Assembly: GCF_002760615.1 (NCBI RefSeq)
Contig: NZ_AWWI01000121.1
Coordinates: 186,001 to 250,000, forward strand
DNA: 64,000 bases
From: Puniceibacterium antarcticum
GTDB taxonomy: Bacteria; Pseudomonadota; Alphaproteobacteria; Rhodobacterales; Rhodobacteraceae
Direction: 5' to 3'
Shown in pieces: positions 2 through 9,589 of the stretch. Made by a program: the position numbers and the translations under genes. Position 1 is the stretch's first letter, and each line of letters begins with the position of its first letter. A model generated the notes under the pieces. The model was not told the origin of the DNA and ran no database searches. It saw nothing but the letters and a program-made list of their open reading frames with translations.

Positions 2-409
2 ACCTCGGGCAAGATGACCGCGATGGAGGCGCTGATTTCCGTGCCCTCGCGCGGCATGCCGGTCAACGTGGCGGTTGATGGTCCGGTGCAATCCACCTGG
101 GAGCAGGGCAAAGAGATGTATTACACGCGCTACGGTCAGCTTGAGCTGTCCTGCGCGAATTGCCATGAGGACAATTATGGCAACTACATCCGCGCCGACC
201 ACCTGAGCCAGGGTCAGATCAACGGCTTTCCGGTGTACCGCCTCAAGAACACCAAGCTCAATCAAGTGCAGGACCGGTTTCAGGGCTGTATCCGCGACAC
301 CCGCGCTGAAACCTTCAGCGCCGGCAGCCCGGAATTTGTGGCGCTTGAGCTTTATGTCGCCTCGCGCGGCAACGGTCTTGGGGTCGAAGCCCCCTCAGTC
401 CGCAACTGA
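2..409 (+). CDS. soxA: SoxA, diheme/monoheme c-type cytochrome of thiosulfate oxidation (3' part)
   Basis: The open frame enters from the left edge, so only the C-terminal ~135 residues are present. It contains a c-type heme site CANCH near the middle. Further on, the FQGCIRDTRAE stretch matches the SoxA site where a cysteine ligates the heme and carries the persulfide. SoxA with SoxX attaches thiosulfate to the carrier SoxYZ in the periplasm. soxB follows 90 bp downstream. A strong hairpin with a T-run lies right after the stop, so soxB may be transcribed partly on its own. Identification is confident. The number of hemes cannot be judged from this fragment. Confidence 0.95.
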   Translation, partial: TSGKMTAMEALISVPSRGMPVNVAVDGPVQSTWEQGKEMYYTRYGQLELSCANCHEDNYGNYIRADHLSQGQINGFPVYRLKNTKLNQVQDRFQGCIRDTRAETFSAGSPEFVALELYVASRGNGLGVEAPSVRN

Positions 410-447: not shown

Positions 448-465
448 CACTGACAATCCATGCAT

Positions 466-477
466 ACATGCGCATGT
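466..477. promoter_or_regulatory. Palindrome upstream of soxB, candidate operator
   Basis: ACATGCGCATGT is a perfect 12-bp palindrome lying 22 bp before the soxB start and just after the soxA terminator. A related CACAT-N6-ATGTG repeat lies before the next sox-derived frame. The ArsR-family repressor SoxR controls sox genes in relatives, so it is a plausible binder. That link is inference. Confidence 0.45.
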
Positions 478-499
478 GTAATTTTCGGAAGGGTCCGCA

Positions 500-2197
500 A
501 TGATCTCTCGTCGCGACTTCATGCAGGTTTCCATGGCCGCCTCGGCTTTGGTCGGGGGCAGCGGGTTCGGCAACTGGTCGCGCCTTGCCGCGCAGCAGCG
601 GCTGACGCAGGACCAGCTGTTGCAGTTCGACACCTTCGGGAATGTGTCGCTGATCCACATCACCGACATCCATGCCCAGCTGAAACCGATCTATTTCCGC
701 GAACCCGAGGTGAATATCGGCGTCGGTGACAACCGGGGAAAGGTGCCGCATGTGACCGGCGCGGATTTCCGCAGGCTTTACGGCATCGACGATGGCGCGC
801 CCTCGGCCTATGCGCTGACCTATAATGACTTCTCGGCGCTCGCGGCGGAATATGGCCGCGTTGGCGGGTTGGACCGGGTGGCAACCGTGGTGAATGCGAT
901 CCGCGCCGAACGACCCGATGCGATCCTGCTGGATGGCGGCGACACCTGGCACGGGTCCTACACCTGCTACCAGACGGCGGGGCAGGACATGGTCAATGTG
1001 ATGAACGGGCTGAAGCCGGACGCCATGACCTTTCACTGGGAATTCACCCTCGGCTCTGAGCGTGTGAACGAGATTGTCGCCGGGCTGCCCTTTGCCGCGC
1101 TCGGTCAGAACATTTTTGATGCCGAATGGGACGAACCGGCCGAAGCTTTCGCGCCTTACAAGTTCTTTGAACGCGGCGGGGTCAAGATTGCCGTGATCGG
1201 TCAGGCTTTTCCCTATATGCCCATCGCCAACCCCGGCTGGATGTTCCCCGAATACTCCTTTGGTATCCGTGACCAGCATATGCAGGAAATGGTGGACGAG
1301 GTCCGCGCACAGGGCGCCGGTCTGGTGGTTCTGCTGTCGCACAACGGCTTTGACGTCGATAAAAAGATGGCCAGTGTGGTGACGGGCATCGACGTGATCC
1401 TGTCCGGTCACACGCACGACGCGCTGCCCGAACCCGTGCTGGTGGGGCAGACGATCATCGTCGCCTCAGGCTCCAACGGTAAATTTGTGTCGCGCGTCGA
1501 TCTGGATGTGCGCGACGGGCGGATGATGGGATTCCGCCACAAGCTGATCCCGATCTTCTCGGACGTGATAACTCCCGACCCCACCATGACCGCGCTGATC
1601 GACGCACAGCGCGCCCCGTATGAGGCCGAGATGTCCGAGGTGATCGGCAAAGCCGGCAGCCTGCTCTACCGCCGTGGCAACTTCAACGGCTCTTGGGATG
1701 ACGTGATCTGTGACGCGCTGCTGTCCGAACGCGAGGCAGAGATTGCCCTGTCGCCCGGCGTGCGCTGGGGTCCGTCGATCCTGCCCGGTCAGGACATCAC
1801 GCGCGAGGATATCTGGAACATGACTTCCATGACCTATCCCAACGCTTACCGCACCGAAATGACGGGGGAATACCTCAAGGTGGTGATGGAGGATGTGGCC
1901 GACAACCTGTTCAACCCGGACCCGTTCTACCAGCAGGGCGGCGACATGGTGCGCGTGGGTGGCATCGGCTACCGCATCGACGTGACCAAACCACAGGGCG
2001 AACGGATCTCGGACATGACGCTGCTGTCCACCGGCGACGCGATCGACCCCGCCCGCAGCTATGTGGTGGCCGGCTGGGCAAGCGTCAATGAAGGCACCGA
2101 AGGCCCGCCGATCTGGGACGTGGTCGAAAGCCACATCCGCAAGCAGGGCACGGTGACACCTGCGGACAACACGAGTGTGACGGTGGTCGGGGCCTAG
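500..2197 (+). CDS. soxB: SoxB, thiosulfohydrolase of the Sox system
   Basis: This 565-residue protein has the metallophosphoesterase/5'-nucleotidase fold of SoxB. SoxB is the manganese enzyme that hydrolyses sulfate off the SoxYZ-bound intermediate in the periplasm. The N-terminus SRRDF plus a short hydrophobic stretch is a Tat signal. Metal-site motifs are DIHAQ (residues 56-60), LLDGGDTW (143-150) and later SHNGFD and SGHTH. The HWE triplet near residue 179 replaces the NHE of true nucleotidases, which is typical of SoxB. Length matches the family. The start is supported by GGAAGGG about 10 bp upstream. Its neighbours are soxA before and a soxC/D remnant after. Confidence 0.97.
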   Translation: MISRRDFMQVSMAASALVGGSGFGNWSRLAAQQRLTQDQLLQFDTFGNVSLIHITDIHAQLKPIYFREPEVNIGVGDNRGKVPHVTGADFRRLYGIDDGAPSAYALTYNDFSALAAEYGRVGGLDRVATVVNAIRAERPDAILLDGGDTWHGSYTCYQTAGQDMVNVMNGLKPDAMTFHWEFTLGSERVNEIVAGLPFAALGQNIFDAEWDEPAEAFAPYKFFERGGVKIAVIGQAFPYMPIANPGWMFPEYSFGIRDQHMQEMVDEVRAQGAGLVVLLSHNGFDVDKKMASVVTGIDVILSGHTHDALPEPVLVGQTIIVASGSNGKFVSRVDLDVRDGRMMGFRHKLIPIFSDVITPDPTMTALIDAQRAPYEAEMSEVIGKAGSLLYRRGNFNGSWDDVICDALLSEREAEIALSPGVRWGPSILPGQDITREDIWNMTSMTYPNAYRTEMTGEYLKVVMEDVADNLFNPDPFYQQGGDMVRVGGIGYRIDVTKPQGERISDMTLLSTGDAIDPARSYVVAGWASVNEGTEGPPIWDVVESHIRKQGTVTPADNTSVTVVGA

Positions 2198-2219: not shown

Positions 2220-2258
2220 ATGAAAAATTTGGCATTTTCATTCACATAAGCGCATGTG
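2220..2258. promoter_or_regulatory. Two inverted repeats before the soxC/D remnant
   Basis: ATGAAAA (2220-2226) pairs with TTTTCAT (2235-2241). Next to it CACAT (2243-2247) pairs with ATGTG (2254-2258) around AAGCGC. The second repeat resembles the palindrome before soxB and suggests a shared regulator. GGGAGG at 2269-2274 is the ribosome binding site. Confidence 0.4.
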
Positions 2259-2280
2259 TTGATATGAAGGGAGGCAGGAC

Positions 2281-2601
2281 ATGACGTTCGATACCAATCC
2301 AAAACAGGCCTCGCGCCGGGCGTTCCTGAGGGGAACGCTTGCGGCGGGCGGCACACTGGCCGGGGCGGGGATGGTCCGCGCCGGCGATCCGCTGATCACC
2401 GAAGTGCAGACCTGGGCGCAGGGCTTTGGCTGTTCCAGCGCCATATCGGATCATGGCGGTGTCTGGGGCGCTGATGTTCTGGCGGCCTTTCTCGCCAACC
2501 CAATGGCCGCAGTGAGCGGCACCAGAATGGCCTTTGCCGGTCTGAAGAAAGACGCGGATATCGCCGGGATGGTCGGTTATCTGCGCAGCACCGCACCCTG
2601 A
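2281..2601 (+). CDS. Apparent in-frame soxC-soxD deletion remnant, 106 aa
   Basis: The first ~50 residues look like the start of SoxC, the molybdenum subunit of sulfur dehydrogenase. There is a Tat signal SRRAFLRG followed by GDPLITEVQTWAQGFG. The rest reads like the C-terminal half of a class I cytochrome c domain such as SoxD, with HGGVW, an FLANP segment and the methionine-ligand motif GTRMAFAGLKK. The molybdopterin domain and any CxxCH heme site are missing. The junction falls near residue 50, around 2430, and may lie in a shared GF dipeptide. A good ribosome binding site remains. Function is doubtful. The 3' part could come from another cytochrome such as soxE. I treat it as a degenerate gene still open in frame. 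Confidence 0.7.
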   Translation: MTFDTNPKQASRRAFLRGTLAAGGTLAGAGMVRAGDPLITEVQTWAQGFGCSSAISDHGGVWGADVLAAFLANPMAAVSGTRMAFAGLKKDADIAGMVGYLRSTAP

Positions 2602-2804: not shown

Positions 2805-3434
2805 ATGAGAGACCCAGTAGAAACCTATATGAACCTTGTGCCCATGGTGGTTGAACAGACCAGCCGTGGCGAACGCGCCTATGACATCTTTTCGCGCCTG
2901 CTCAAGGAACGGATCATTTTCATCAACGGCCCGATCCACAGCGGGATGAGCCACTTGGTCGTGGCCCAGTTGCTGCACCTTGAGTCAGAGAATCCGTCCA
3001 AGGAAATCAGCCTGTATGTCAACTCGCCCGGGGGCGAGGTGACAGCGGGCCTCTCGATCTATGACACCATGCAGTACATCAAACCGAAGGTGTCTACACT
3101 GGTCTGTGGCATGGCCGCCTCAATGGGGTCGGTGATTGCGATCGGCGGCGAAAAGGGCATGCGTTTTGCCCTGCCGAATGCCGAAATCATGATTCACCAG
3201 CCCTCAGGCGGATCGCAGGGCATGGCCGAAGATATCCTGATTTCGGCCCGTCACATAGAAAAAACGCGCGAGCGGATGTATCAGCTTTACGTGAAGCATT
3301 CCGGTCAGACCCTCAAAGCGGTTCAAAAGGCGCTTGATCGCGATCTGTGGATGACGCCCGAAGAGGCCAAGGATTGGGGCCATATCGACGAGATCGTGAC
3401 AAGCCGCGAAGCCGTTGAAGAAGCAAAGTCTTAA
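2805..3434 (+). CDS. clpP: ClpP, ATP-dependent protease proteolytic subunit
   Basis: A 209-residue serine protease of the Clp family, which forms the double-ring chamber that degrades proteins fed by ClpX or ClpA. The catalytic serine is Ser106 in GMAASMGS. The histidine is His131 in MIHQPSGG and the aspartate is Asp180 in DRD. The start at 2805 has AGGCAGG upstream, and the N-terminus keeps the LVPMVVEQT stretch with the family's usual short propeptide. clpX follows 152 bp downstream on the same strand, the usual pairing. A hairpin separates the two genes, so partial termination with a second promoter for clpX is possible. Confidence 0.98.
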
Positions 3435-8340: not shown

Positions 8341-8829
8341 TTATTCGAGGATCACGAGCGGGGCGCCGTATTCGACCGGGGCGCCATCCTCGATAAGGAT
8401 TCGCTTGACCGTGCCCGCGCGGGGCGCCGGGATGTGGTTCATCGTCTTCATCGCCTCGACGATCAGCAGCGTGTCGCCTTCGGACACCTGCTGGCCGACG
8501 CGGATGAAGGGCGGCGAGCCCGGCTCGCCTTGCATGTAGACCGTGCCAACCATGGGAGAGGTGACCGCGCCTGGATGGGATGCGGGATCTTCGGCCATTT
8601 CAGCCGCAGGGGCCGGTGCCGCTGGTGCCATTGGCGCGCCGTAGCCGGGCGCCGGGGGCGCAGCATAATTCTGGGCGGGGGCCGGCTGCATGCGGCTCAC
8701 CCGGACGTTCAGACTGTCGTCTTCGCCATAATCCCGTTTGACCTGCAATTCGGTCAGATCGTTTTCACGCAAAAGTTCTGCAAGTGCCTGAATAAAGGCC
8801 ACGTCAGAGTCATAAGTTTTCTTGGTCAT
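8341..8829 (-). CDS. accB: Biotin carboxyl carrier protein of acetyl-CoA carboxylase
   Basis: A 162-residue carrier. The N-terminal ~45 residues bind the carboxylase. A flexible Ala/Pro/Gly-rich linker spans about residues 48-80. The C-terminal biotinyl domain carries EAMKT, with Lys128 as the biotinylated residue. The domain also has the PMVGTVY start and [14 protein letters not shown] end expected of the barrel. GAGGA precedes the ATG. It is the first gene of accB-accC, and aat follows after a hairpin spacer. Confidence 0.97.
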
Positions 8830-9021
8830 GCCATCCTCGCCCGGTTCCTGTCGCGCGATGCCCTTGGGCTGCGCATGCGGTTGCCCGCTTATAGGACATC
8901 AGTCCGGGCATGAAAAGCGATGCTGTTGCGGCAGCCATTCTTGGCTCAGCGCCCGGCCCCGCTCACATGCTGTGGCGGGGGTCCGTGGCAGGGCAGGGGC
9001 GTTTCGCTCCAGGATCGGGCC

Positions 9022-9489
9022 TCAGGCGGTGATGCCCTCAATCTTTGCACCAGCGTCCTGCGCCATTTCGGAAAGCTGGCCATACCCCGACGATGACGGC
9101 GTTTGCGGCGCATCAGGGCGGGCTTCCTCAAACTGAACCTCGCTTTCCGTCTCTTCGGCGCCGGCGTCGCGGCGGACTTCATCCGCGTCTTTTTCGCGCT
9201 CTTCTGCGGTGTCCTGCAAAAGCGGGGCCTGCTGTTCCAACAGGGCGCTTATTTTCAGCTGCATGATAGACGGTGGCGCGACATGAGTCGCAGGGTCAGG
9301 CTGTCCACCGACGACCCGCCAGAACTGCGAGGGCGATTTTTCCTGCATCATGCCTGAGTCGCTGGACGATTGCTTTGAAACGGTGGGAACACGCGTTACA
9401 CTTTTGGTCTGGTCGCTGGTTCCGGGCAGGCCGAAGGGATGGCCCGTCGAAATGGGGGCGGCCCAGGGGGGAAGGACCGAGAAGTGCAT
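9022..9489 (-). CDS. Hypothetical hydrophilic protein, 155 aa
   Basis: I do not recognise a family. The frame is supported by a strong AAGGAG six bases before the ATG. The protein has no signal peptide or membrane helix. The first ~70 residues are Pro/Ser/Gly-rich and probably disordered. Residues ~75-125 are Glu/Asp/Arg-rich with heptad-like leucines (IMQLKISALLEQQAPLL), suggesting a short helix or coiled coil. The C-terminus is Ser/Ala-rich. It stands alone, with a ~470-bp spacer upstream. Codon choice is like its neighbours. Confidence 0.65.
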   Translation of the reverse strand: MHFSVLPPWAAPISTGHPFGLPGTSDQTKSVTRVPTVSKQSSSDSGMMQEKSPSQFWRVVGGQPDPATHVAPPSIMQLKISALLEQQAPLLQDTAEEREKDADEVRRDAGAEETESEVQFEEARPDAPQTPSSSGYGQLSEMAQDAGAKIEGITA

Positions 9490-9589
9490 ATGAAACTCCT
9501 TTTGGCTGACAGGGTAACAGAGGTTTACCTTATCACAAATTCTGCACCTATCTTTGCAAATAGCGCGGAAAATGGGGGGATTCGTTCAC

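Follow-up and report, generated by a model that had tools for sequence, protein, structure and literature searches.

The 106-amino acid open reading frame (ORF) that follows soxB in Puniceibacterium antarcticum appears, with a probability of about 0.92, to be the scar of a single deletion of approximately 2 kb between soxC and soxD, most likely a young pseudogene; the organism is left with a truncated Sox system. The N-terminal part of this ORF is the beginning of SoxC and the C-terminal part is the end of SoxD; both genes are present in full at the same place in the congeners. All coordinates without a prefix refer to the window, the 64,000-nucleotide stretch of contig NZ_AWWI01000121.1 that was analyzed.

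Composition of the fused open reading frame

According to the ORF list of the window, the fused ORF extends from ATG to TGA at 2281–2601 and is separated by 83 bp from soxB and by 203 bp from clpP (Table 1). A BLAST search against 60 relatives started with the whole ORF identifies two separate matches within the same genomes, about 2.1 kb apart (in the congeners G003 and G004). The first covers residues 1–56 and falls in a 427–440 aa frame, SoxC; the second covers residues 46–104 and falls in a 373–374 aa frame, SoxD. The SoxD-derived part starts at residue 48 or 49 and corresponds to the last approximately 58 residues of SoxD. Cytochromes c552 from PDB match residues 44–102 (E=1e-11), a stretch located C-terminal to the heme-binding motif, and the axial Met region is retained in the tail. 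The CxxCH heme motif is not found in the translation of 2281–2601, where only the part past the second heme motif survives, and Pfam detects no match to the molybdenum cofactor domain PF00174 in the 106 residues. The only Pfam match of the whole ORF is a sub-threshold one to the Tat signal; the isolated SoxC head scores 17.3 bits with the Tat signal profile TIGR01409 (cut-off 16.7). The original prediction read the first 50 or so residues as SoxC and the remainder as the end of a SoxD-type cytochrome, with the molybdenum domain and CxxCH gone. Separate comparison of the two halves bears out each of these points: they match two different proteins in the same relatives, and the similarity of the first half to SoxC is clear. 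The same SoxC-SoxD fusion was not found in the 60 relatives or in the genus.

Table 1. Features of the soxA–clpP region, in window coordinates
Feature	Position	Strand	Basis
soxA, 3' part (start upstream of the window; full ORF L003:9561-10409)	2–409	+	TIGR04484 SoxA, 163 bits (cut-off 110)
Palindrome TACATGCGCATGTG upstream of soxB, candidate regulator site	465–478	.	pattern scan
soxB, intact	500–2197	+	TIGR04486 SoxB, 848 bits (cut-off 550)
Former soxC leader with palindrome CACATaagcgcATGTG (2243–2258) and ribosome site AAGGGAGG (2267–2274)	2223–2280	+	1 mismatch in 58 nt vs G003; also aligned to three congeners
SoxC head (Tat signal and first 50 codons)	2281–2430	+	84% amino acid identity to SoxC residues 1–50 of Puniceibacterium confluentis; TIGR01409
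Probable deletion junction GGC TTT GGC, Gly-Phe codons common to soxC and soxD	2422–2430	+	both sides aligned to three congeners
SoxD tail (end of second cytochrome c domain and stop codon)	2431–2601	+	52–57% identity to congener SoxD tails; c552 match
clpP, gene after soxD in three congeners	2805–3434	+	ORF list; synteny

Gene order and the probable deletion junction

In three congeners, P. confluentis (L034), G003 (L122) and G004 (L123), the gene order is soxA-soxB-soxC-soxD-clpP-clpX. In the window, the order is soxB-ORF-clpP-clpX, so that the fused ORF stands in place of soxC and soxD. The window's SoxB protein shares 94% identity with its counterparts in P. confluentis and G004. Comparison with these sister genomes, where both full genes occupy the same place, together with the separate SoxC and SoxD matches, upholds the proposal of an in-frame deletion remnant downstream of soxB. 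The rest of the system is retained: soxA and soxB are intact, and soxX, soxY and soxZ are present upstream (L003:8168-8641, 8740-9159 and 9177-9506, respectively), and other sox clusters have homologs of each of these three in matching order. The window's ClpP protein shares 97.6% identity with its G003 counterpart and only 78–81% with its P. confluentis and G004 counterparts, and the adjoining ClpX is 98–99% identical across all compared congeners; the clpP alleles look, from these identities, as if they had been exchanged among congeners.

The window follows SoxC through GGGCTTTGGC up to 2430 and SoxD from TGTTCC (2431 on). At the junction, the soxC sequence is GGCTTyGGC, and soxD contains GGCTTC in two of the three congeners (G003 and G004). 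This alignment places the join at the Gly-Phe dipeptide that had been suggested near 2430; because the congeners are used in place of the true ancestor, the exact position within the junction interval is an estimate. The deleted length is 1,987 bp between homologous end points relative to G004; a manual count from match positions gives 1,969 bp relative to P. confluentis and 1,984 bp relative to G003. None of these lengths is divisible by three; the fusion is nevertheless in frame because soxC and soxD occupy different reading frames, and the codon phase of GGCTT does not differ between the two, so that a join at this point preserves the frame. Thus, a single deletion of about 1,970–1,990 bp would have removed most of soxC and soxD, which encode the subunits of sulfane dehydrogenase; its ends were probably joined at the short GGCTT match, yielding an in-frame fusion that would still carry the leader of soxC together with its start codon and Tat signal.

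The ribosome binding site and the palindrome upstream of the former soxC are both present and intact, as had been noted from the letters of the window. The palindromes upstream of soxB and soxC resemble each other and conform to ACAT-N4/6-ATGT. A pattern scan of related loci finds similar palindromes upstream of soxB in 36 and upstream of soxC in 7. These palindromes may be candidate sites of the ArsR-type regulator that is encoded upstream (L003:5889-6395).

soxCD in the genome and across the family

The genome (5.55 Mb, a draft of 189 contigs with a completeness of 100) was searched for further copies. A full-length SoxC query finds the remnant as the sole match. The PF00174 profile identifies two ORFs, MsrP and a 168-aa ORF without an NCBIfam match, and a second soxC was rejected on these grounds. 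Full SoxD is not found in the genome; the query matches other class I cytochromes, through the C-terminal domain, and the remnant, and there is one weak match to the N-terminal domain (E=9e-4). Only one true SoxB is encoded, and a second soxB is not found.

Loss of soxC is uncommon in the family, given that SoxB exceeds the cut-off in 134 genomes of a sample of 199 and that 129 of these also encode SoxC. The five exceptions are the P. antarcticum genome, G080, G089, G125 and G199. The latter four share with it SoxB over the cut-off without SoxC; the gene order in them differs, and a SoxC-SoxD fusion was not seen in any of the four. In G089 and G125 (L137:8416-8751 and L138:8291-8596), soxB is directly followed by a gene for a SoxE-like cytochrome and then by a SoxF-like ORF; in G199, other genes follow soxB; and in G080 (L136:5278-7791), only soxYZ and soxB are seen, with soxA, soxC and soxD not nearby. 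At the level of loci, soxC lies inside the locus in 83 of 84 sox loci (80 plus four congener stretches; G002/L037 is apparently included in both sets). The exception is a second cluster (L073) in Phaeobacter sp. 22II1-1F12B, where, as in the window, clpP lies downstream of soxB and soxCD is missing from the interval; unlike in the window, no soxCD remnant is detectable (L073:8698-8952), and soxCD is present in the other cluster of this strain (L095). Complete Sox systems have been reported to be more common than truncated ones in Rhodobacteraceae (PMC10451225), and among alphaproteobacterial type strains there are 146 complete and 8 incomplete systems (PMC9959259).

Age and constraint of the remnant

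A two-ratio codon model was applied to ten taxa on the soxB tree. For the tail, omega on the window branch does not differ from that on the remaining branches (0.137 vs 0.132), and an omega of 1 is rejected (p=0.005); for the head, the values are 0.159 and 0.101, and an omega of 1 is rejected only at p=0.048. Most of the changes in the head fall in codon position 3, which in the tail carries more changes than either other position. Of the 23 columns with at least 80% conservation in working SoxD, the tail departs from 4 (Y>C, K>S, K>R and A>G). Departure to the same extent is seen in 7 of 81 other rows, some of which are misaligned, so that these four columns hint at slight decay and leave the event undated. 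The codon model does not detectably show the remnant evolving as a dead gene, and its age therefore cannot be fixed more closely than "recent on this branch". Because substitution in both parts still resembles that of working genes, the remnant is, from its sequence, most likely a young pseudogene. The almost unaltered leader, with its single mismatch to G003, also speaks for youth. The window branch includes the time before the deletion, so the low omega fits a young deletion and a still-constrained ORF alike.

Alternative interpretations

The low omega could thus also reflect maintenance of the remnant by selection, with the fused ORF encoding a small Tat-exported protein that, for example, binds a Sox partner. 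The ORF is open and in frame, its leader and Tat signal are intact, and for head and tail alike the window branch has an omega under 1; however, the cofactor sites are missing, no other genome searched encodes such a fusion, and most substitutions on the branch can predate the deletion, so that a low omega is expected of a young pseudogene as well. Overall, selection for such a protein seems very unlikely. The more specific version, in which the fusion has been retained in a new role such as holding SoxYZ during the hand-over of sulfane sulfur, appears slightly more doubtful still.

It is highly improbable that the strain has full soxCD and that the contig was wrongly joined, even though the draft consists of 189 contigs and was judged from contigs alone. 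The join sits inside a 381 kb contig, the congeners show a shared stretch of just about 5 bases, which is not long enough for the usual assembler to make a join, and the deleted sequence would be expected on another contig, yet there is no further piece of soxC in the assembly. That the tail derives from a different cytochrome c, and not from soxD, is just as hard to accept. Although the tail is only 53–57% identical to congener SoxD, and other class I cytochromes match it too, the SoxD tails of the congeners differ from one another almost as much (58–73% identical), the other cytochromes of this genome match the tail less well (39–42%), and the position of the tail is precisely that of the soxD end ahead of clpP in the congeners. 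The deletion scar, most likely a young pseudogene, accordingly remains the preferred reading.

Predicted consequences for thiosulfate oxidation

Given that soxXYZAB is kept and soxCD is lost, P. antarcticum is, as far as its genes indicate, an organism with a truncated Sox system. The SoxCD reaction would be impossible for the scar, which contains neither the molybdenum domain nor a heme site; since leader, start codon and Tat signal all remain from soxC, its expression and export may nonetheless continue. In the Sox cycle, SoxXYZAB binds thiosulfate and releases one sulfate. Both steps are restated in PMC10451225. The retained soxXYZAB should therefore still split thiosulfate with the release of one sulfate, and without SoxCD the sulfane sulfur would remain on SoxY, from where it would probably pass to a cytoplasmic persulfide dioxygenase (PDO) or be lost as sulfide or elemental sulfur.

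The genome encodes two PDO homologs with an ETHE1/Blh-type metallo-beta-lactamase domain, which score 434 and 388 bits on the dioxygenase part of NF040641, below the cut-off that is set for the two-domain protein. One of these genes adjoins genes for Sulf_transp and DUF6691 proteins and for a sulfur transferase. The PDO-like genes are present also in congeners that have soxCD and are therefore an available bypass rather than an adaptation to the loss. For rDsr, one of the cytoplasmic oxidation routes, a search of the genome for DsrA yields sub-threshold matches only, with none over the cut-off, and a search for TsdA matches only SoxA itself. These gene assignments suggest that the two PDO homologs, together with the sulfur-transport-like genes, could finish the oxidation, bypassing SoxCD. 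Thus, the part of the original prediction that depended on the absence of soxCD elsewhere in the genome agrees with the genome searches; storage or export of sulfur, which it expected to follow, is one possibility and not the default reading, since the PDO homologs could provide a bypass.

Truncated Sox systems described previously (PMC10451225, PMC9959259) similarly keep the genes for SoxXA, SoxYZ and SoxB and lack SoxCD, which leaves sulfane sulfur on SoxY, but the loss in P. antarcticum has left a fresh scar, and complete systems dominate its family. A close parallel is the soxCD mutant of Cupriavidus pinatubonensis JMP134 (PMC9959259), in which the same gene set is lost and the rest of Sox is kept, in an organism that also has two PDO genes and YeeE/YedE-like transporters. 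In that mutant, the thiosulfate consumed was still oxidized to sulfate, at a lower rate, with PDO taking over; when PDO was missing as well, sulfide was released (PMC9959259). The Cupriavidus mutant is a laboratory deletion, whereas the present case is a natural event in a marine alphaproteobacterium known from genes alone.

The kind of gene loss described here is already known from truncated Sox systems; what is new is a case in which the scar is still visible. In a family dominated by complete systems, the change from a complete to a truncated Sox system can be seen as one step, in which the two end points and the point of joining are visible. The strain is in effect a natural soxCD deletion for which the congeners are matched controls, and the fate of sulfane sulfur should therefore be directly testable in a marine roseobacter-type bacterium.
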